40,617 nucleotides of DNA, from positions 1 through 40,617 of the IMG/VR virus record IMGVR_UViG_3300045973_000618; one strand, written 5' to 3'. Below, piece after piece: positions 7,213-27,982 of this stretch. The number at the start of each line of letters is the position of its first letter. The stretch's first letter is position 1. The DNA comes from a virus. The notes under the pieces are model-generated. The model saw only the letters and a program-made list of their open reading frames with translations, did not search any database and was not told where the DNA came from. The position numbers and the translations under genes were made by a program.

Positions 7213-7797
7213 ATGAATGCAGGGTCGGGGGATTCTGCTCAACGGTTCGGGGGATTCGTGGCGAAGTACTACAGCGAAAAACAGCTTTGTGACATGATTT
7301 GGGATCAGAGGAAGCACCTGCTTCAGATCGGGTGGATTCTATCAAGTCCCGAATTACATATTGAAGAGTCGTTTCGAGAGCACACGATCGGGTACGGTCT
7401 GAGACCCGACTTCATGACGATCCAAAAACCCAAGTCTAAAAAGCCAGAAGATTTCACAATGTGCGTTTCTGTATATGAAGTGAAACGGCACGCCGATGCT
7501 GGGTCAGTGGCACAGCTCGCCAATTACATGCAAGTGGTGCGGAAGCACCTCTCTGATGCCTTCGCCCACACCTACCACCCGCCACTTCCATTTGATCAAT
7601 GGCCTACCGTGGATGGGCACCTCCTTGCTCTTGGATTTGACCAGCCGGTCTACTCGCTGGCGAAGCAATCCAACATCACGCTCACTCGATTAACCGTCAG
7701 TGGCGATGAACTTCAGACCTCAAGAGAGGCGCATCCGTACGAAAAGATGCCTCTGGACTCCATGTCTTCGTCGTTTTTTTCAAAATATTGGGTGTAA
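7213..7797 (+). CDS. PD-(D/E)XK-like protein of unknown function
   Basis: A 194-residue protein beside attP. Residues around GYGLRPDFMTI, then VSVYEVKRHADAGSVAQLANYM, give the order D ... ExK ... QxxNY of PD-(D/E)XK nucleases: Asp in RPDF, Glu and Lys in YEVK, Gln in AQLANY. That fold includes restriction, repair and defence nucleases; the exact family is not recognised. It has no signal or membrane segment. The start at ATG 7213 lacks a strong ribosome site, so a later start is possible. Position between attP and the replication genes means it lies at one prophage end, where accessory genes often sit. Confidence 0.55.
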   Translation: MNAGSGDSAQRFGGFVAKYYSEKQLCDMIWDQRKHLLQIGWILSSPELHIEESFREHTIGYGLRPDFMTIQKPKSKKPEDFTMCVSVYEVKRHADAGSVAQLANYMQVVRKHLSDAFAHTYHPPLPFDQWPTVDGHLLALGFDQPVYSLAKQSNITLTRLTVSGDELQTSREAHPYEKMPLDSMSSSFFSKYWV

Positions 7798-7801
7798 TCT
7801 C

Positions 7802-8659
7802 ATGAAAAACTACGACGGTTTGACGATTGAGATATTGAAGTGGGAAGACTTCAATCCAAGAAAAGATATTACAAGCCCGACTTGGTTCAGAGTGAATCAT
7901 GGAATATTCGAAGAACCCAAGTTCTATTCGCTCGTCGGAACGGATTGGACCGTTCTCCTTTACTTCATGTGTCAGGTTTCAAAGACCAATAATAACCGCA
8001 AGTTCGTTCTGAATTGTGACCACGCCAAACGAGTAGCACAAATCAAGCCGTCTCAAATCGCAGCGGTAATTGAAAAGCTGAAGGCGTCCCAGTTCATAGC
8101 CGCCCACGTCACGCCGCCGTACGCAGACGTAACGCCCACGAACGTGGACGGTACGTTCGTGGCCCTTACGGACGTACGGACGAACGAACGTAACGATACA
8201 GTACAGACTCCGGAATCTCCCGTCGTCAAGATTGAAGATGTGGAACGCTGTAAAGCCACCTGGCTTGGCACCCTTAAACACTTCGGAGTGGACCGCACCA
8301 TTTTGGAATCTGAAGAACTCGAAATCTTCAGAGCCATCAAGGGTCAAAAGGGGAATGCCAAGATCGTTGAATTGGCCCTATTCGGCGCGGCCTTCGAACC
8401 TGCACACGAGGGATTCAATCCAAAGGACTACGTCAAGATCAGCCGAATCTTCAGGCCCAGCAAGAACGGGGATTCAAAGCTGCCCGACTTCGTAAACTGG
8501 GGCGCCAAGAAGCGGGCTGAAATCAAGGCCGACGAATACCGTAAGGCCAAAGACGAGAAGATCGAAGAAGAAGTTGAGCGCTGCGATCCGGCAACGGTCC
8601 GCGCCATTCTTGAGAAGACATTCCCAACCAGCAGACGAATGGCTCAGGAGGGAGCGTGA
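7802..8659 (+). CDS. Phage replication initiator (O-like, winged helix)
   Basis: A 285-residue protein from ATG 7802. Its N-terminal part (TWFRVNHGIFEEPKFYSL, then a winged-helix stretch with QIKPSQIAAVIEKLKASQF) resembles phage replisome-organiser proteins. A threonine/asparagine-rich linker at about residues 103-135 is encoded by a strongly repetitive ACG-rich sequence, a likely origin. The C-terminal half is helical and charged and may contact the host helicase or its loader. The gene ends inside the methyltransferase start (GTGA overlap). No helicase or polymerase gene is present, so the phage probably recruits host replication proteins. Confidence 0.6.
   Translation: MKNYDGLTIEILKWEDFNPRKDITSPTWFRVNHGIFEEPKFYSLVGTDWTVLLYFMCQVSKTNNNRKFVLNCDHAKRVAQIKPSQIAAVIEKLKASQFIAAHVTPPYADVTPTNVDGTFVALTDVRTNERNDTVQTPESPVVKIEDVERCKATWLGTLKHFGVDRTILESEELEIFRAIKGQKGNAKIVELALFGAAFEPAHEGFNPKDYVKISRIFRPSKNGDSKLPDFVNWGAKKRAEIKADEYRKAKDEKIEEEVERCDPATVRAILEKTFPTSRRMAQEGA
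8100..8200. other. Candidate replication origin inside the initiator gene
   Basis: A dense run of ACG-containing units (CGTACGCAGACGTAACG, GGACGTACGGACGAACGAAC) surrounds a perfect 10-bp inverted repeat, CCACGAACGT (8136-8145) and ACGTTCGTGG (8153-8162). The encoded protein segment is a low-complexity linker, so the DNA pattern is not explained by protein needs. Lambdoid phages keep origin iterons inside the O gene in the same way. Confidence 0.5.
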
Positions 8660-9660
8660 TCAATGGCTTGGACTTATTTAGCGGAATCGGTGGAATCACA
8701 CTTGCCCTATCACCATGGGTCAACCCCGTCGCCTACTGTGAGAACGACAGATACGCTCAATCCGTTATTCTTTCCCGAATGGCGAACGGCGAACTTCCTG
8801 TCGCACCGATATGGGACGACATCAGGACTCTCACGGGAACCCGGGTTCCTGCGATCGATATGGTCTACGGAGGTTTTCCCTGCCAAGACATCAGTGTTGC
8901 GGGCGCTGGCAAAGGTCTGGACGGTGACAGATCGGGACTTTTCTTTGAAATCGTCCGGATCGTCGAAGAAACAAAGCCCGCATTTGTCTTCCTTGAAAAC
9001 GTCGCTGCGATCCGAACAAGAGGACTTAGTCGCGTTGTGCGCGAGCTGGCCCGCCTCGGGTTCGATCTCCGGTGGACGACTATCTCAGCCGCAGAGGTTG
9101 GAGCCCCGCACCTCAGAAAAAGATGGTTCCTCCTTGCTGCCCACCCCGACGGCCTCGGAGTACGGGAGCTGCGTCGGTGGAGCAGCCGGGCGCTCCGGAA
9201 AAGTTCGGCCAAGTTTATCGAGCATGGCCCGCGCGGACCTCTGGCCGACACCGACTGTTCACGGGAATCACAATGTTCCAAAGAATGGGACCTCGAGCGG
9301 GACGGGACTGTCGACTGCGGTGAAGTTGTGGCCGACGCCTCGAGCGTCGGACGGAGCCCACGGAGGACCCAACCAGAGGGGATCTCGGGGAGGACTGGGT
9401 CTTCCTGCTGCTGTGGTTCAATGGAGAACTCCGTGCGCTCGGGACGGGATGCCGCGCGGGCCGAGCGATCCGCAGAAACGAATCGAACAGGGACATGCAG
9501 TCTCTTTGCACGATCAGATTGGTGGACAACTGAGCCCGCTCTGGACCGAGTGGTTAATGGGCTACCCAATCGGATGGACCGAATTAAGTGTCTGGGCAAC
9601 AGCGTGGTTCCGCTCCAAGCCCGTACAGCCTTCGAAAGATTGATGGGGATTGAAACATGA
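8656..9660 (+). CDS. DNA cytosine-C5 methyltransferase
   Basis: A 334-residue enzyme from GTG 8656, with AGGAGG at 8646-8651. Motif I is LDLFSGIGG (5-13), motif IV GGFPCQDIS (72-80, catalytic Cys76), motif VI ENV (114-116), motif VIII PHLRKRW (151-157), and motif X GNSVVP (314-319). It transfers a methyl group from S-adenosylmethionine to cytosine, probably to shield phage DNA from host restriction. The region between motifs VIII and X, the target-recognition part, is low-complexity and rich in R, S and C, because a second frame with its own conserved motifs runs through it (8663-9643). No partner restriction gene is nearby. Confidence 0.9.
   Translation: MINGLDLFSGIGGITLALSPWVNPVAYCENDRYAQSVILSRMANGELPVAPIWDDIRTLTGTRVPAIDMVYGGFPCQDISVAGAGKGLDGDRSGLFFEIVRIVEETKPAFVFLENVAAIRTRGLSRVVRELARLGFDLRWTTISAAEVGAPHLRKRWFLLAAHPDGLGVRELRRWSSRALRKSSAKFIEHGPRGPLADTDCSRESQCSKEWDLERDGTVDCGEVVADASSVGRSPRRTQPEGISGRTGSSCCCGSMENSVRSGRDAARAERSAETNRTGTCSLFARSDWWTTEPALDRVVNGLPNRMDRIKCLGNSVVPLQARTAFERLMGIET
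8663..9643 (+). CDS. Overprinted frame in the methyltransferase gene (PTP-repeat protein)
   Basis: A 326-codon frame, +1 relative to the methyltransferase, with ATG 8663 eleven bases after the same AGGAGG. Its second half carries repeated motifs: LLPTPTASEYGS (158-169), LWPTPTVHGNHN (193-204), LWPTPRASDG (222-231), WRTPCARDG (254-262) and SPLWTEWLMGYPIGWTEL (291-308). I recognise this pattern from phage proteins annotated as methyltransferase parts or as hypothetical neighbours of them. The first half partly mirrors the methyltransferase frame (FPAKTS is the shifted reading of the PCQ motif). It may be a separate protein, or an alternative C-terminal half reached by frameshift near motif VIII. 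Expression is not proven. Confidence 0.45.
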   Translation: MAWTYLAESVESHLPYHHGSTPSPTVRTTDTLNPLFFPEWRTANFLSHRYGTTSGLSREPGFLRSIWSTEVFPAKTSVLRALAKVWTVTDRDFSLKSSGSSKKQSPHLSSLKTSLRSEQEDLVALCASWPASGSISGGRLSQPQRLEPRTSEKDGSSLLPTPTASEYGSCVGGAAGRSGKVRPSLSSMARADLWPTPTVHGNHNVPKNGTSSGTGLSTAVKLWPTPRASDGAHGGPNQRGSRGGLGLPAAVVQWRTPCARDGMPRGPSDPQKRIEQGHAVSLHDQIGGQLSPLWTEWLMGYPIGWTELSVWATAWFRSKPVQPSKD

Positions 9661-20536: not shown

Positions 20537-23500
20537 TTAATGCCGATCCTTCTTGGGACGACGTTTATAGAAGTCCTGCACTTCAGGACTCATCCCGTTT
20601 GAGGTCATGTCGTACACATTCCAGAACCACTGATTAAGCTGATCTGGGTAGGGAAGCAGGTAGGACATCGCCTTCGTCGTGGACTCTGCGACCTCCTGAG
20701 TTCCTGCCTTGCCTTGAGTCGCCTTGATCGCGGTCTGTCCCACCCGGAGGCCCGCTTCGATGCCTGAGATCGCAGGGGAAGGACGATACCCGAAGGACTT
20801 GAGTCCGAGCGTCTGGTCGAGTCCGATGCTGGCCAGATCCCGGACGCTAGGGAGAAACCCGAGCGGAAACATTGCCGTCTCTTTCAGCCACCATGCCCAT
20901 GGATCGTCTTTGTCTCCAGGGCCCTTACCGGCCAGCAGTGCCGACAGAGGGACGAAGACCAGCATTCTCTGAGCCACGAAGCCCAGGAATCGGGGGTAAT
21001 TCTTGATCGACTCCTTCCGAAGTCCATTCTCAGACATCCACCGATTGGCCTCGACGTTCATGAAACTGTAGAACATTGCGACACTTTTCGTAATTTCGTC
21101 AGCCCGCTGGTATCCTGCCTGATCGTACTTACGACTGGACCCGGTGACTCGCTCGACCAGAGTGTCAGCGTACCGAACGGCCTTGTCTTCTTTGCCGTGC
21201 TCGTCCATCTGTTTGTGGAAGGCCTCAAGCCACATCGGGACGTTTGACATCTCGTCGGTCGCAGCCATCAGACCATGACCGAACGCGGCGAGTGAAGAGT
21301 CCTTGCCGAACATCGTATTTTTCTGTTCGTGGAAGCTGAAGTCCGGAGTCTCGTGCTTGTCTCTCATGAAGGACGACTTCTCGTAAATGAATGCCCGGGT
21401 TTCTGCCGCAGCCTTCCAGTTGAAGAGAACCTTCGGGAAGTAATCCATGAGACCGCGAACGAAGAACCCGCGGGCAGCTTCTCGCTTGCCGAATCCTTCG
21501 ATCGCACCGTCGAACAGGAACGGGTTCGCAAAGTTCTGAATAATGACAGACGGCTTGAATCCGAGGACTGCGGTCGTGGTGTTCGATCGCAGAGACCTTA
21601 CGACTCGCTCCATCGTGGTAAGCATGGTCCGATTCTGGACGTTGCCGGTAGCGACGGAAGCGACCCATTCCTTCACGGCCTCGAACCCTTCCGGACCTAC
21701 GTTCCGCTTCATGGAGTCCTGGAGGAAGCGGTTATTCATGAGCCTGCGCAGATCGGTGATCACCTTCCGGAAGGCTATGTCGTGGATCACGTCTCTCATG
21801 TGGCGATTGATCAGGGTGATGTCCAGAGCAACGGCATAGGTAGCCTTCTCGACGCGGCCCTTCGTGTGGCCGGTCTTTGTCGCCATGATCCAACCCGGAT
21901 TCTTTTCGGAATAGAGCGGTGCTTCGAGCTTTTCGCGGACGTTGGCCTTCTCGCTCGATCGGTGATCTTCCTTCAGTGGATAGTACCCGCCGCGCATCGC
22001 GACTTCGCCGTCCTTCGCCTGAGCCAAGAATGGAAGGTGCTCGACCTTGCCCGGGGTGAACCCGGTCATGTCTTTGTGAAGCGCTGCGATCTCGGGCCAG
22101 AGAGTCCCGATCATGTCCCAAGCGTTCTGAACGAACTCCCAGTCCTTCACGGTCAGGTTCTTCTTCAGCATCGCCTTCGCGACATTGAGATCCCAGTATT
22201 TTGATTGATCAGCCCAGACCGGTGGAGTCGAGAACAGACGGTCACGGTTCCCTTGGTTACCCATGTTCAGAGCCATGGCGATCAGGCGCATCTTTGTGGC
22301 TGAGGTCCCGAGCTCTTCCAGGTGGATCAGCTTGGAACCCATCTCGTTGAGTTCCTTCTTCGAATAGGCGGACCAGAGTTTTTCGAGCATCCCTTCGGCC
22401 TTCTTCAGCATGTCGGATTCCACGTTCGCAGCCTGGTACACCGGATCGGTGAACACCTGCTGCCAGATTCCGAAGTCCTTCCATCCGTCCTGTTTCCGGA
22501 GGATTGTGGAAATCTTCTTCAGACTGGTTTTATAGCTGGCCCACATCTTCGCGATTGCGTCGAGCTTCCCGGGCTCTGCGCTGTGCTTCGTCTTCTCACT
22601 CTCCTTCGTGTTCAAATTGGACTCATCCGTGAGTCTATCGACGATCTGGTCGATATCCGCACCATCCATGATGGATAAAAAGCGCTTCTCGACATTTGCA
22701 GCCGTCTGAATATTCTTAATTGAATCGACCACGTCATGGAGCTGATCGATCGACAGGTCGGCGATCTTCGTCCGAACGGTCTCGTCCATGATCCACTCCG
22801 GAAGCACGGCATTGCCGACCCCGGACTCTTCGTCGTTCATGCGGATGACCCAGTCCTTCAGGGTCTCGCGTCGGAGTTCTTTGTTGAAGTCGTAGCGCGG
22901 CATCCCGAAGCGCTCCAAGATCATCGCCACCTGGGTGAAGTGCTCTTCGGCTTTAAAGAGCGAAGCCTTCTTCTTCTGGATCGCCTTCAGAAAGTCGATC
23001 TCTTTGTCGACCATTTTTTTGACCTTGAGCGATTCCATGGCCAGAGCGTGATTCAGCATCTGCTTCTGCTTGTGGTCGGCTGCGGTCTTATAATCCTTCT
23101 TCACTAGAGCACGAGCGACCTGAACCGCTTCGTTTCGTTCGGCGGTGAAGTAGGGCTTGAATGCCACCGCATCCCCAACCCGACTGGAACCGATGATCTT
23201 CGCGGCCAGAGCCTTCGCCGCGTCGTACTCGACCTTGGCTTGAATCGCACGTCGCTTCTTTGCGGCCTCTGCGTCCGGAAGGTTCTCCACCATGCCGTCG
23301 AGCACCGCCTTCTCCATGGCCATGACTTCGACCTGTTTGTCGCTGTGGATCGCTTCGAGAGCTGCCTCTTTGATCCGGGATGAGTCCTTCAGATCTTCGA
23401 ACTCGATCATGCCCATCTCAACCCGATCGGCGATGTAGGATTCAACCTTCTGAGCCTTGAGAATGGTCTTCGCCATCTCGTCGCCCGAGGTGTATCCGTT

Positions 23501-26500
23501 GGCTTCCGCGATCATGTCGAAGCGGATCCCGTTCTCTTCGGTGAGCTTCCCGTCGATATACTTCTGAGCGGACTCCTTCGGATCGGCCTTCAAGTTGTCC
23601 TGAATCTCGTTCTGAGACTTGTAAACTGGCACTGACTTGACATTCTCGGTGGCCCGCCTTGTCAGGTCTTCCTTCGCCTTCGTAATCTTCGCGAGATTGT
23701 CCTTCGAGATCTCATCCATCTGCCTGGTCAGGAGAGTGGAGACGGCTTCTTCGTGAGCCTGTTCCCGAAGGTCTGACAGCTTCTTCGCAGCTTCTGCCGG
23801 CATACCCTCGATCTGGGTGTTGTCCATGCCGCCCGACACCTTCTCGGCCTGGTTGATCTCGGATTCAGCGGACAGCATTCGATCCATGACCCCTCGTACC
23901 GGATCGGACAGCTCGACGTTGAGACCCTTCACGGTCGAATAGATCTTGGTCAGCCAGCGCTTGAAGTTCGCGAACACCTTCCGGAGCTCGGAGGTGGGAG
24001 CCTTGCCTTCCATGACGTAGGCTTCAAAGCCGCGGGCGAAGGTCTCCTGCTGTTCTGTGGTGAGCTTTTCCTGACCGTCTTTGATCGCGAGCCAGTCAGA
24101 CAGGACCTTCCAGTCGGCCAGGTACTGAGCGTCGGCCTTGCCTGATTTGATGTGATCGTTCAGGTCCTTCAGCCACATGTGTGCAGATTCATGCACGAAC
24201 GTGGAAGCGTCGGCATTCCTGAACATGCTGATAATTGTTGAGTCTTTTCCGAAGTTAACGCTACCTCTGGGGGTTTCGCCATCTTGGAAGAGGGTCTGCC
24301 CTTCAAAGAGAACCGCATCACGCATTTGAGGCGTGACATCGATGGAGTGGACGGTCTGTTTAAACTGCGCTGGATCGACTTCCCCTCCATTGCGTCGGCG
24401 TTGACTTTCCGCATACGAGAGAGTGGTCTCTGGCTTTACGAAACTAGTTTCCCCAACCCTGCCGCCCCATTTTTTCGTGTACTTGCTTAGGAAGTCAGGG
24501 ATGATCTTGTCGTAGAATCCCTTCATGCCATCGCCGCCGATTTTTAGGTCATTGCCCTCAAGCTGTGCGGATACGTTGGTTCCTTTGTCTGCCTGTTCCT
24601 TGAGCTTCTGATAAACCTCTTTACCGAACAGGTCCGGGACCTTTGATTCTGGAACTATCGAATTTGAATCAAGTACGTCATTGCCGTCCTTTGTGGCGCG
24701 AACGGCTACTTGCCCATTCTCTTTTCCGTCGGTGACAAGTCGCTGCATCGAAACGCGGTCGACCTGTTTGCTTAGGTCATACCGTGCAGCCTGCTGATCT
24801 CCCGTTGTCCATGCGACTCGGTCGTAACCATTTTCTGCAGCCATGCGCAGAATCTTCTTCAGTGCGAATTCGTGCCACGTCTTTTTGAATGGGGCATCCG
24901 GAACCCCCAGACTTCTCTTTTTGTTGAACAGTCGAATTGATTCGGACTCAGTAGATGCTCTGGAATCCAAGTCCTTGAACCCATCGTTTTGAACCACATA
25001 GTTGCCATCAGAAGCCAACACGACCGATGCGTTTGGAGGAAGACTCGAAGACTCGCTCTGTCCCTTGTATCCCTTCTTTCTACCGTCCTGGTGCCAGTCG
25101 CTTTGGATCTCTTCCACAAAAAGGACGTGCTTCCCGTCGGAGTCCACGCGGTCGTCGAGTCGAACGTGGGCGAGGACGTTCTTCTCTTCCCAGTGCCCCG
25201 ATCGATAAACCGGACTGGATCCATGTTTCGAGTAGAAGTCGGCAATCGCTTCCGCCTGAGTCTTGCCGTGGCCATAGCGCTGATCGACACCGTTGACCGA
25301 CGTAGGCCCTTCGACCACCCACTGACTGCCGTATTTCTTTGCAGTCTCGGTGGCAGGATTCTGTTTTACGACATACCCATCAGGGAGTTCGGCAATCGTG
25401 ACCGGTGGCAATGTGAACAGAATTTCGCGGTAATTTTCTCCACCCGGGAGAGTGTATTGGGTGAATTTCGCATCCGCCGCAGACGTTCTCATTCCAGTTC
25501 CGCCCGCAGCCTTCCACTTATCCATGGATGCCTTCGGATCGATCTTCTTCACTTCCTCAACCTGAATCTGATTCTCTTTCAGGAAGTCCAGCAGCTCCTG
25601 CTTAGATACCTTTTCTTTGCCCTGCAAAAACTCGTTGATCCCGGAATACTGCATCTCTTCGGGCTTCACCTCCCGGAGGGTGGCGATGATCTGAGCAGGG
25701 GTGGCATTGTTCGAGACCTTGTCCTGAACGGTCTTCTCAAGTTTTGAATAGAACTCGGGAGCAGGCTGCTTTGAAACCGGAGACTGCAGGAATGGCTCTT
25801 CCTTCGTCACCGCCGCCTGGTCGTATCCGCTGGACTGGTACAGATCGTCGAGAATGGTCTGCTGCTTCTCGGTCAGCTTCGCGCCGCCCATTGTCTTGTC
25901 CAGAATGTTCAGAACTTCGGCCTTCGTGTGGCCCTTGTTCTGCATGTACTTTGGATAGGTGGAGTAGGACGGAATTGATTTGTTCGTCGCTTCGCCTGCC
26001 TGCAGAGTTTCCTGATTCGCCTGGGGAACGAACCCTCCCGACTCGTGATACCCGGCTTCGACTTCGGACTTGATGCGATCAAGCACTTCCGACTTGTACT
26101 GAGACTTGTTGATCGAGATCACCGGAGCGATCGGACCGTCGCCTTTGACGATCTGTGGCTTGTTGGCGCCGGAGAAGTATTCTTCGACCGAGATCCCGCG
26201 GCGAACTGACTGAGCCACCGCGTGGGCTGCGGACAATCTTGCATTGGATTCGACCAGAGTCGTCCATTGCTTCTGGTTCATGGCGGCAGGTTTGCCGGCC
26301 TGTTCCTGAGCCTGCTTCACATATTCATAAACTGAGTCATATCCGGCCCGGACCTTCGCGTCCTTTTCGGTCTCGACCTTTGCCTTCGCGACCTCGGACT
26401 GCATCAGGGTGTCGAGGTGGGAATTGACCTGCTTCTCCTGGTTCGGAGTGAACTCTTCGGCTGAGAACTTCACGTCATCGGCGAGCGCATTGTAATGCTC

Positions 26501-27982
26501 GGTGTCTGCCATCTGGCTGACCCACTTCGAGAATGGGATCACGATGTCGCCACCGCGGGCCTTCGCGTCCTGGTACTGCTTCTCGACTCCGAGATCTTGA
26601 ACGACCTTCTCGATCGGGATGTTCTTGGATTGGAAGTAAGTCTCTGCGGCATCGACCGGCAGGTACACGTTCTCGACCGGGGTGCCTTCCGCAATGGTGC
26701 CGACAAGGCTCGCGTGAGCTTCCGGGAGTCTGCCCCTGAGTTTGGATTCCTTCACTGTCTGGCCTACGGTGTTGTAGACCTCTTTCAGCTTCTCGATCCG
26801 GCGTGTGGCGAGAGCTTTGTGAGATCCGGAGGCGATTGCCCCAGGGCCCGTCATCGCCGCACCGGACATGCCGCCGACTATGCCGGCGTCGATCGCACGA
26901 GTGAGCATTCCATCCAAAGCGTCTGGCTTGACTCCGGTGATGTGGTCGCTGAAGTCCTGGGCGATGCTGGTCAAAAACTCTTCGTTACCTTCACCGGCAG
27001 CGGAGTGAACCAAGGTCTTCGCGACTTCCTTCATGACTTCCCGAGAGCTCTGCTTCCCGACACTCTGGGCGATCGCATGTTCCCACGACTTCAGGAGCCC
27101 GAAGGTCCCGAGGCTTTCGAAGCCGGATTCGATCGTTCCCTTGGTCAGTGAGTTCAGGGTGTTCATGGCCGGATCTGCGCCGGAGTCTTTGCCCTGCCTC
27201 TGAGAGTCTGCGGCAGTAGTCAGACCTGCGCCGACCAGTCCCGCGGTGCCGAACCCAGTCAAGGCGGAAACGATCAGAGCCGCCTGATTTGGAGCGTTCT
27301 GAGCGAATTGAAGAGCAAGCGACTTGCCAGCATCCGCATAATTCCCAGCCTTGATGGAATCGAATATGCCCTTGTCGATCGCGTCGACATGGTAGGACTT
27401 CGCGCCTTCATCGTAATATTTCGTGACCGGGTTCTCGGTCAGCCAGTCGGGTGACTTGACCTGAAGTTCGGGCTTGCCGATCGCCTTCATGAGAAGGTTC
27501 TGCGGAATGGCCGCGGTATCGTAGGCCAGTCCCGGGATCCGGGCGATGTTCGCATTCAGTGATCCGAGTCCGGACATCGAAGCCCGGTACATGCTGTGCC
27601 AGAACCCTGCGTCTTTGACGGCCTTTTCTGTGGCGCCGATGTTCTCGAAATCGTCCTGGGCTGCGACCACATGATCCGGATTGTTGACAAAGTGTCTCGA
27701 CGCAGCAGGATGATTCTTTTCGAAATCTGCCCAGTACTGGGAATCGTGAGCTGCCGCGACCTTTTCGGCCATGACTGGGTTCTTGTCCACTTCCGACGGA
27801 GATTGCCCGAGCATTCCTGAATACCTGATCACCTTCGCAGCGTGGTCGGGATCGACCTGAAGACCGGCCCGGTACGCTGCTTCAATCTTGCTCGGCTTGT
27901 CCGGGAACATCTCCGGGCTCATGATCACGGTGCCGGTGGTAGGTTGATCCGGGAAGAGTGACGGGTCCAGTTGTTCGGTCAT
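20537..27982 (-). CDS. Giant ejection / polyvalent protein (2481 residues)
   Basis: The largest gene. Its place after two ejection-type genes and before the tail fibre is that of T7 gp16 and BPP-1-type large internal virion proteins, which enter the host with DNA. Around residues 990-1215 a segment with FVEEIQSDWHQDGRKKGYKG and WTTGDQQAARYDL is typical of polyvalent phage proteins. Near 1260 TFVHESAHMWL gives an HExxH zinc-metallopeptidase motif. Long helical regions (1300-2000) and hydrophobic segments near the C-terminus (FVPLSALLAG, AMFPLGFLP) follow. No lytic transglycosylase motif is seen. It may be cut into parts after ejection; that is inference. Confidence 0.8.
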   Translation of the reverse strand: MTEQLDPSLFPDQPTTGTVIMSPEMFPDKPSKIEAAYRAGLQVDPDHAAKVIRYSGMLGQSPSEVDKNPVMAEKVAAAHDSQYWADFEKNHPAASRHFVNNPDHVVAAQDDFENIGATEKAVKDAGFWHSMYRASMSGLGSLNANIARIPGLAYDTAAIPQNLLMKAIGKPELQVKSPDWLTENPVTKYYDEGAKSYHVDAIDKGIFDSIKAGNYADAGKSLALQFAQNAPNQAALIVSALTGFGTAGLVGAGLTTAADSQRQGKDSGADPAMNTLNSLTKGTIESGFESLGTFGLLKSWEHAIAQSVGKQSSREVMKEVAKTLVHSAAGEGNEEFLTSIAQDFSDHITGVKPDALDGMLTRAIDAGIVGGMSGAAMTGPGAIASGSHKALATRRIEKLKEVYNTVGQTVKESKLRGRLPEAHASLVGTIAEGTPVENVYLPVDAAETYFQSKNIPIEKVVQDLGVEKQYQDAKARGGDIVIPFSKWVSQMADTEHYNALADDVKFSAEEFTPNQEKQVNSHLDTLMQSEVAKAKVETEKDAKVRAGYDSVYEYVKQAQEQAGKPAAMNQKQWTTLVESNARLSAAHAVAQSVRRGISVEEYFSGANKPQIVKGDGPIAPVISINKSQYKSEVLDRIKSEVEAGYHESGGFVPQANQETLQAGEATNKSIPSYSTYPKYMQNKGHTKAEVLNILDKTMGGAKLTEKQQTILDDLYQSSGYDQAAVTKEEPFLQSPVSKQPAPEFYSKLEKTVQDKVSNNATPAQIIATLREVKPEEMQYSGINEFLQGKEKVSKQELLDFLKENQIQVEEVKKIDPKASMDKWKAAGGTGMRTSAADAKFTQYTLPGGENYREILFTLPPVTIAELPDGYVVKQNPATETAKKYGSQWVVEGPTSVNGVDQRYGHGKTQAEAIADFYSKHGSSPVYRSGHWEEKNVLAHVRLDDRVDSDGKHVLFVEEIQSDWHQDGRKKGYKGQSESSSLPPNASVVLASDGNYVVQNDGFKDLDSRASTESESIRLFNKKRSLGVPDAPFKKTWHEFALKKILRMAAENGYDRVAWTTGDQQAARYDLSKQVDRVSMQRLVTDGKENGQVAVRATKDGNDVLDSNSIVPESKVPDLFGKEVYQKLKEQADKGTNVSAQLEGNDLKIGGDGMKGFYDKIIPDFLSKYTKKWGGRVGETSFVKPETTLSYAESQRRRNGGEVDPAQFKQTVHSIDVTPQMRDAVLFEGQTLFQDGETPRGSVNFGKDSTIISMFRNADASTFVHESAHMWLKDLNDHIKSGKADAQYLADWKVLSDWLAIKDGQEKLTTEQQETFARGFEAYVMEGKAPTSELRKVFANFKRWLTKIYSTVKGLNVELSDPVRGVMDRMLSAESEINQAEKVSGGMDNTQIEGMPAEAAKKLSDLREQAHEEAVSTLLTRQMDEISKDNLAKITKAKEDLTRRATENVKSVPVYKSQNEIQDNLKADPKESAQKYIDGKLTEENGIRFDMIAEANGYTSGDEMAKTILKAQKVESYIADRVEMGMIEFEDLKDSSRIKEAALEAIHSDKQVEVMAMEKAVLDGMVENLPDAEAAKKRRAIQAKVEYDAAKALAAKIIGSSRVGDAVAFKPYFTAERNEAVQVARALVKKDYKTAADHKQKQMLNHALAMESLKVKKMVDKEIDFLKAIQKKKASLFKAEEHFTQVAMILERFGMPRYDFNKELRRETLKDWVIRMNDEESGVGNAVLPEWIMDETVRTKIADLSIDQLHDVVDSIKNIQTAANVEKRFLSIMDGADIDQIVDRLTDESNLNTKESEKTKHSAEPGKLDAIAKMWASYKTSLKKISTILRKQDGWKDFGIWQQVFTDPVYQAANVESDMLKKAEGMLEKLWSAYSKKELNEMGSKLIHLEELGTSATKMRLIAMALNMGNQGNRDRLFSTPPVWADQSKYWDLNVAKAMLKKNLTVKDWEFVQNAWDMIGTLWPEIAALHKDMTGFTPGKVEHLPFLAQAKDGEVAMRGGYYPLKEDHRSSEKANVREKLEAPLYSEKNPGWIMATKTGHTKGRVEKATYAVALDITLINRHMRDVIHDIAFRKVITDLRRLMNNRFLQDSMKRNVGPEGFEAVKEWVASVATGNVQNRTMLTTMERVVRSLRSNTTTAVLGFKPSVIIQNFANPFLFDGAIEGFGKREAARGFFVRGLMDYFPKVLFNWKAAAETRAFIYEKSSFMRDKHETPDFSFHEQKNTMFGKDSSLAAFGHGLMAATDEMSNVPMWLEAFHKQMDEHGKEDKAVRYADTLVERVTGSSRKYDQAGYQRADEITKSVAMFYSFMNVEANRWMSENGLRKESIKNYPRFLGFVAQRMLVFVPLSALLAGKGPGDKDDPWAWWLKETAMFPLGFLPSVRDLASIGLDQTLGLKSFGYRPSPAISGIEAGLRVGQTAIKATQGKAGTQEVAESTTKAMSYLLPYPDQLNQWFWNVYDMTSNGMSPEVQDFYKRRPKKDRH

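Follow-up and report, generated by a model that had tools for sequence, protein, structure and literature searches.

Lee, Kam and Shaw reportedly showed in 1995 that the beta polypeptide of the methyltransferase M.EcoHK31I (YGGCCR) is encoded within its alpha gene, in another reading frame. In this enzyme, motifs I to VIII and motif X lie in the large subunit, which also holds the predicted target-recognition domain (TRD), and motif IX lies in the small subunit (PMC3404938). M.AquI is likewise made of two polypeptides, the smaller of which carries motifs IX and X (PMC3404938). At the level of translation, some E. coli start sites with adjacent start-codon pairs give both of the overlapping frames (PMC9841429). 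Here, we compare with these systems a phage locus at which, judging from its sequence and its relatives, positions 8656-9660 very probably encode both subunits (alpha and beta) of a heterodimeric C5-cytosine methyltransferase of the M.EcoHK31I kind, both of them translated.

The stretch analysed (the window) comprises the 40,617 bases of an IMG/VR virus record and comes from a phage with integrase and RecT genes. As shown in Table 1, two long frames lie side by side in it, as an earlier sequence-only reading had described. The frame-0 ORF (alpha) runs from GTG 8656 to the stop codon at 9658-9660 and encodes 334 amino acids. It matches the Pfam family DNA_methylase (PF00145) at 1.9e-38, confined to residues 3-165. 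Its match to M.HhaI (3.2e-20) spans residues 5-163, only the part with motifs I to VIII. The catalytic and AdoMet motifs I, IV (PCQ), VI and VIII that mark a C5 methyltransferase are all present in frame 0, and so is motif X; motif IX is absent from frame 0 over 8656-9660 and occurs in the +1 frame only. Two other ORFs of the window were recorded. The one upstream, at 7213-7797, encodes 194 amino acids and has no Pfam match; as a guess, it might be a partner nuclease. On the minus strand, a 2481-amino-acid ORF at 20537-27982 has a polyvalent-protein domain, LPD22 (PF18834, 2.2e-08).

The +1 ORF (beta) runs from ATG 8663 to the stop codon at 9641-9643 and encodes 326 amino acids. Its ATG is indeed near the same ribosome site, since the AGGAGG that stands 4 nt before the GTG of alpha stands 11 nt before the ATG of beta. 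When the 326-residue frame was searched by itself, as the sequence-only reading had proposed, it matched PHROG 1008 (phrog_1008) at 1.5e-29 but had no match in Pfam or NCBIfam. A search of solved structures returned chance matches only with the beta sequence and none with the beta profile. Of the four PTP-type repeats previously described, three read PTP and the fourth reads RTP. Among relatives, the number of such repeats ranges from about 1 to 5 (window 9134-9448, compared with loci L100-L107), and this variation would be consistent with the gain and loss of modules in a recognition part. Beneath motif IV, the +1 frame gives FPAKTS at 8876-8893. The block with the core LMGYPIGWTEL, under which frame 0 reads RVVNGLPNRMDR over 9547-9582, contains a Met-Gly that is the sole invariant pair among 38 beta sequences. 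This LMGYP.GW block looks like the motif IX known from C5 methyltransferases. Both its identification as motif IX and the absence of that motif from frame 0 go beyond the sequence-only reading.

Table 1. Features of the predicted alpha and beta frames in the window.
Feature	Frame	Position	Strand	Basis
Shared ribosome site AGGAGG		8646..8651	+	read from sequence
Alpha, predicted C5-cytosine methyltransferase	0	8656..9660	+	PF00145, M.HhaI match, motif positions
Beta, predicted, with PTP repeats and motif IX	+1	8663..9643	+	phrog_1008; openness, codon-position and start-codon tests
Motif I, DLFSGIGG	0	8671..8694	+	
Motif IV, FPCQDIS, with catalytic Cys	0	8875..8895	+	
Motif VI, FLENV	0	8989..9003	+	
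Motif VIII region, RKRWF	0	9115..9129	+	
Alpha linker VIII-X, low complexity	0	9130..9546	+	codon-position and reverse tests
Repeat 1, LLPTPTASEYG	+1	9134..9166	+	
Repeat 2, LWPTPTVHG	+1	9239..9265	+	
Repeat 3, LWPTPRASDG	+1	9326..9355	+	
Repeat 4, QWRTPCARDG (RTP instead of PTP)	+1	9419..9448	+	
Block with the form of motif IX, SPLWTEWLMGYPIGWTEL	+1	9533..9586	+	invariant Met-Gly; hhalign to single-chain enzymes
Motif X, CLGNSVVP	0	9589..9612	+	

Coding in the second frame was tested by keeping the frame-0 protein fixed, shuffling synonymous codons and comparing the length of the open +1 stretch. For the window alone, a +1 stretch this long arose in the shuffles with P=0.002. Across 58 dereplicated loci, P was at most 0.002 in all and below 0.001 in 54; over these loci the +1 frame had 294 stops against 592 expected, and the +2 frame had 1162 against 1216 expected. 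When the test was calibrated on 133 other ORFs, six scored P<0.002, and four of these seem to be pieces of these same methyltransferases that had escaped the filter. Homologues with a +1 frame full of stops were looked for among 20 relatives chosen by frame 0 alone, regardless of the +1 frame, and all 20 keep it open.

The identity at codon positions 1, 2 and 3 (counted in frame 0) changes along the gene. Over motifs IV to VIII, the values are.64,.74 and.44, typical of a gene read in frame 0. From VIII to IX they are.35,.45 and.38, and around IX they are.50,.62 and.58, where the variable position is the wobble position of the +1 frame. Marine relatives have.50,.71 and.66 from VIII to IX; the IX-X columns of this clade, misaligned by an insertion, were left out. 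In the PTP region, the first codon position of frame 0 varies most. In the reverse test, with beta fixed, frame 0 was strongly constrained over IV-VIII, and in the PTP region it was mainly just stop-free with little further constraint. This agrees with the earlier description of frame 0 between VIII and X as low in complexity, as if constrained by the other frame: frame 0 there is little more than kept open.

The starts of the +1 frame were also compared. In the window's clade, 21 of 22 relatives have AAT or TAT as the frame-0 codon that gives the +1 ATG, where 44% is expected from the 155 of 350 Asn plus Tyr codons elsewhere in these genes (binomial P 5e-7, with the relatives treated as independent). 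Of 54 loci from relatives with a nested beta, 41 have a Shine-Dalgarno sequence (at least 5 nt) ahead of a +1 start, and the shuffles expect 9.3; an example of such an internal ribosome site is TTAAGGAGATAGCAAATG. Taken together, the comparative evidence agrees on four lines and supports two predicted coding frames at 8656-9660.

Several phage C5 methyltransferases taken as controls proved to be overprinted themselves. Four of them (L213, L214, L216 and L218, from Sulfitobacter phiGT1, Paenibacillus Harrison, Stenotrophomonas SBP2phi2 and Porphyromonas phage022a) look overprinted, with motif IX in the +1 frame only and the second frame unannotated. The Javan3 family (L215:986-2239, L221-L299) consists of single-chain enzymes with motif IX in frame 0. 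Most members nevertheless have a different +1 frame that is open beyond chance over IV-VIII (about residues 17-199), and third-position identity is.58-.66 over residues 60-180 compared to.35-.46 elsewhere. This +1 frame is more similar among members than the +2 frame, matches PHROG 16143 and has a conserved C-terminal KYYLS..K...LL motif. The T4-like enzymes L300, L301 and L305 showed no such +1 signal (P 0.3-0.57). Since the Javan3 enzymes also score, openness over IV-VIII by itself does not prove a subunit with motif IX; in the window's family, too, some of the +1 signal in this region may have another cause. The argument for beta is built on the VIII-IX stretch, on motif IX and on the starts.

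Relatives of the window present the same parts in other arrangements. In single-chain enzymes of mycobacteriophages (L109-L138), motifs I to VIII, the PTP part, IX (WMMGWPAGW) and X (IGNGV) follow one another in one frame, and the beta profile aligns with their PTP-IX part (hhalign 97.8%, E 1.1e-12). A model of one such enzyme matches M.HhaI end to end (Foldseek E 1.9e-14; Z 21.6); its I-VIII part and its IX-X end are modelled with good confidence, whereas the PTP region has a confidence below 50. Beta modelled alone was poor (mean pLDDT 56.6) and was left out of the fold search. In mycobacteriophages (L001:1071-2645 and L109-L138), the series of PTP repeats starts in the +1 frame and goes on in frame 0 of a single gene, which looks like a switch of frame between repeats. 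In loci L127-L129, the PTP repeats are still in +1 even though motif IX is read in frame 0. Mycobacteriophages also have these parts divided between two overlapping annotated genes. Phage Hoot has gp84 (I-VIII) and gp83 (PTP, IX and X) as overlapping genes, both annotated as DNA methylase. In the Paenibacillus larvae phages Shelly (gp55/gp56) and Bloom (56/57), a nested pair in the +1 relation has both frames annotated, and the note on Shelly gp56 reads 'g55 internal gene'. The second protein suggested by the sequence-only reading thus gains from +1 openness, the switch in codon position, the kept ATG, internal ribosome sites and annotated pairs elsewhere, all of which point to a predicted beta.

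Compared to the known systems, the window resembles M.EcoHK31I in having I-VIII and X without IX in alpha and IX in a second, predicted polypeptide; this likeness is one of described motif layout. Because M.EcoHK31I already splits IX from I-VIII and X, the window would belong to a known kind. It is unlike M.EcoHK31I in that its two frames share one ribosome site and overlap almost completely. A further difference may be that beta holds the conserved VIII-IX part, whereas the TRD of M.EcoHK31I is predicted in the large subunit (PMC3404938). The window is also like M.AquI (CYCGRG) as a putative C5 methyltransferase of two polypeptides, but its motif X is in alpha and not with IX in the small subunit; the gp84/gp83 split of phage Hoot is the one that resembles M.AquI. 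The single-chain mycobacteriophage enzymes and M.HhaI have the same motifs in the same order as the window and share a fold over I-VIII and IX-X, but are one chain read in one frame. The Shelly and Bloom pairs are in +1 like the window, but their beta has 234 amino acids and a separate start site within alpha.

In the proposed enzyme, one ribosome site would serve both GTG 8656 and ATG 8663. Alpha would bind AdoMet and carry motif X along with the catalytic cysteine. Motif IX, and probably target recognition through the PTP repeats, would come from beta, and the two would associate into an enzyme that resembles M.HhaI in outline. We infer the translation of beta, its association with alpha, methylation by the pair, the reading of DNA by the PTP part and a target site; the PTP part as the DNA-recognition element is a guess from its position. 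The small constraint on frame 0 between VIII and X speaks for a target-recognition domain in beta, the PTP part of which has no confident model. By analogy with other phage methylases, it is plausible that this one would shield the phage's own DNA from host restriction; it may also be an orphan methylase.

The +1 frame might instead be a mere shadow, open and conserved owing to frame 0, with the second protein never made. Some +1 blocks do exactly shadow frame-0 motifs (FPAKTS under FPCQDIS, WPTP under VADA/LADT), and the window by itself reaches P=0.002 only. However, with the frame-0 protein fixed, the +1 frame is still open in 58 of 58 loci and +2 is without effect, and the first-position variability of the PTP region is the opposite of a shadow pattern. 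Preservation of the ATG and the internal ribosome sites of nested relatives also go against a shadow, under which the enzyme would moreover have no motif IX. We regard this explanation as very improbable. We give even less credence to a +1 protein that is real but, instead of being a methyltransferase subunit, acts for instance as a regulator or an anti-restriction factor. Such a role would be in keeping with the Javan3 enzymes, which carry their conserved +1 frame although a single chain needs no second subunit, but in the window's family motif IX is present in beta only, and beta can be aligned to the PTP-IX stretch of the single-chain enzymes.

The sequence-only reading had also raised a frameshift product, which would follow frame 0 to motif VIII and then +1 across the PTP repeats and motif IX as a single chain. 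The single-chain relatives show that these parts work, or at least are kept, in one chain. Motif X, however, is back in frame 0, and therefore a frameshift product needs a second shift; in addition, the +1 frame has its own start, as seen from the ribosome site in nested relatives and the preserved ATG in the window's clade. These features do not support this proposal, to which we give the least credence of all.

The layout that alpha and beta would share as subunits of one enzyme is found well beyond the window. Across 80 plus 20 viral loci, frame 0 carries motifs IV and X, and motif IX, where recognised in the overprinted loci, is always in +1. When the beta profile was run against bacterial genomes, it found 49 loci in many phyla. 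Of the 46 that could be classified, about 42 place IX in the +1 frame relative to IV and X; this share is not a frequency, since these loci were picked by the beta pattern. In most overprinted bacterial loci, IX and X are 50 nt apart. In a Pseudomonadota sample, PHROG 1008 was matched in 18 of 398 genomes; the 15 loci that could be classified there are without exception overprinted and show the same 50-nt spacing. A distant-mode search of E. coli genomes for a related gene gave no match, and plasmids gave few matches. In a tree of the alpha core, single-chain forms appear in about four places, with rows labelled 'both', from a loose pattern that matches RLMGL at the end of alpha, read as overprinted. 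No account of wide conservation of the overprinted layout was found in the papers searched. Tentatively, and at somewhat below an even chance, +1 overprinting of C5 methyltransferases may be old and general, with the beta type (PTP and IX) in many phyla with frozen geometry and the Javan3 type over IV-VIII.

Long same-strand overlaps that code for parts of one enzyme have rarely been established in bacteria or phages, and standard annotation keeps one of two such genes and drops the other. The dropped frame carries a piece that the enzyme should need, and therefore many annotated 'cytosine methyltransferases' would fail as single cloned proteins. The wide conservation would allow the sharing of constraint between two frames to be studied over long times, in comparison with fused and separated relatives.
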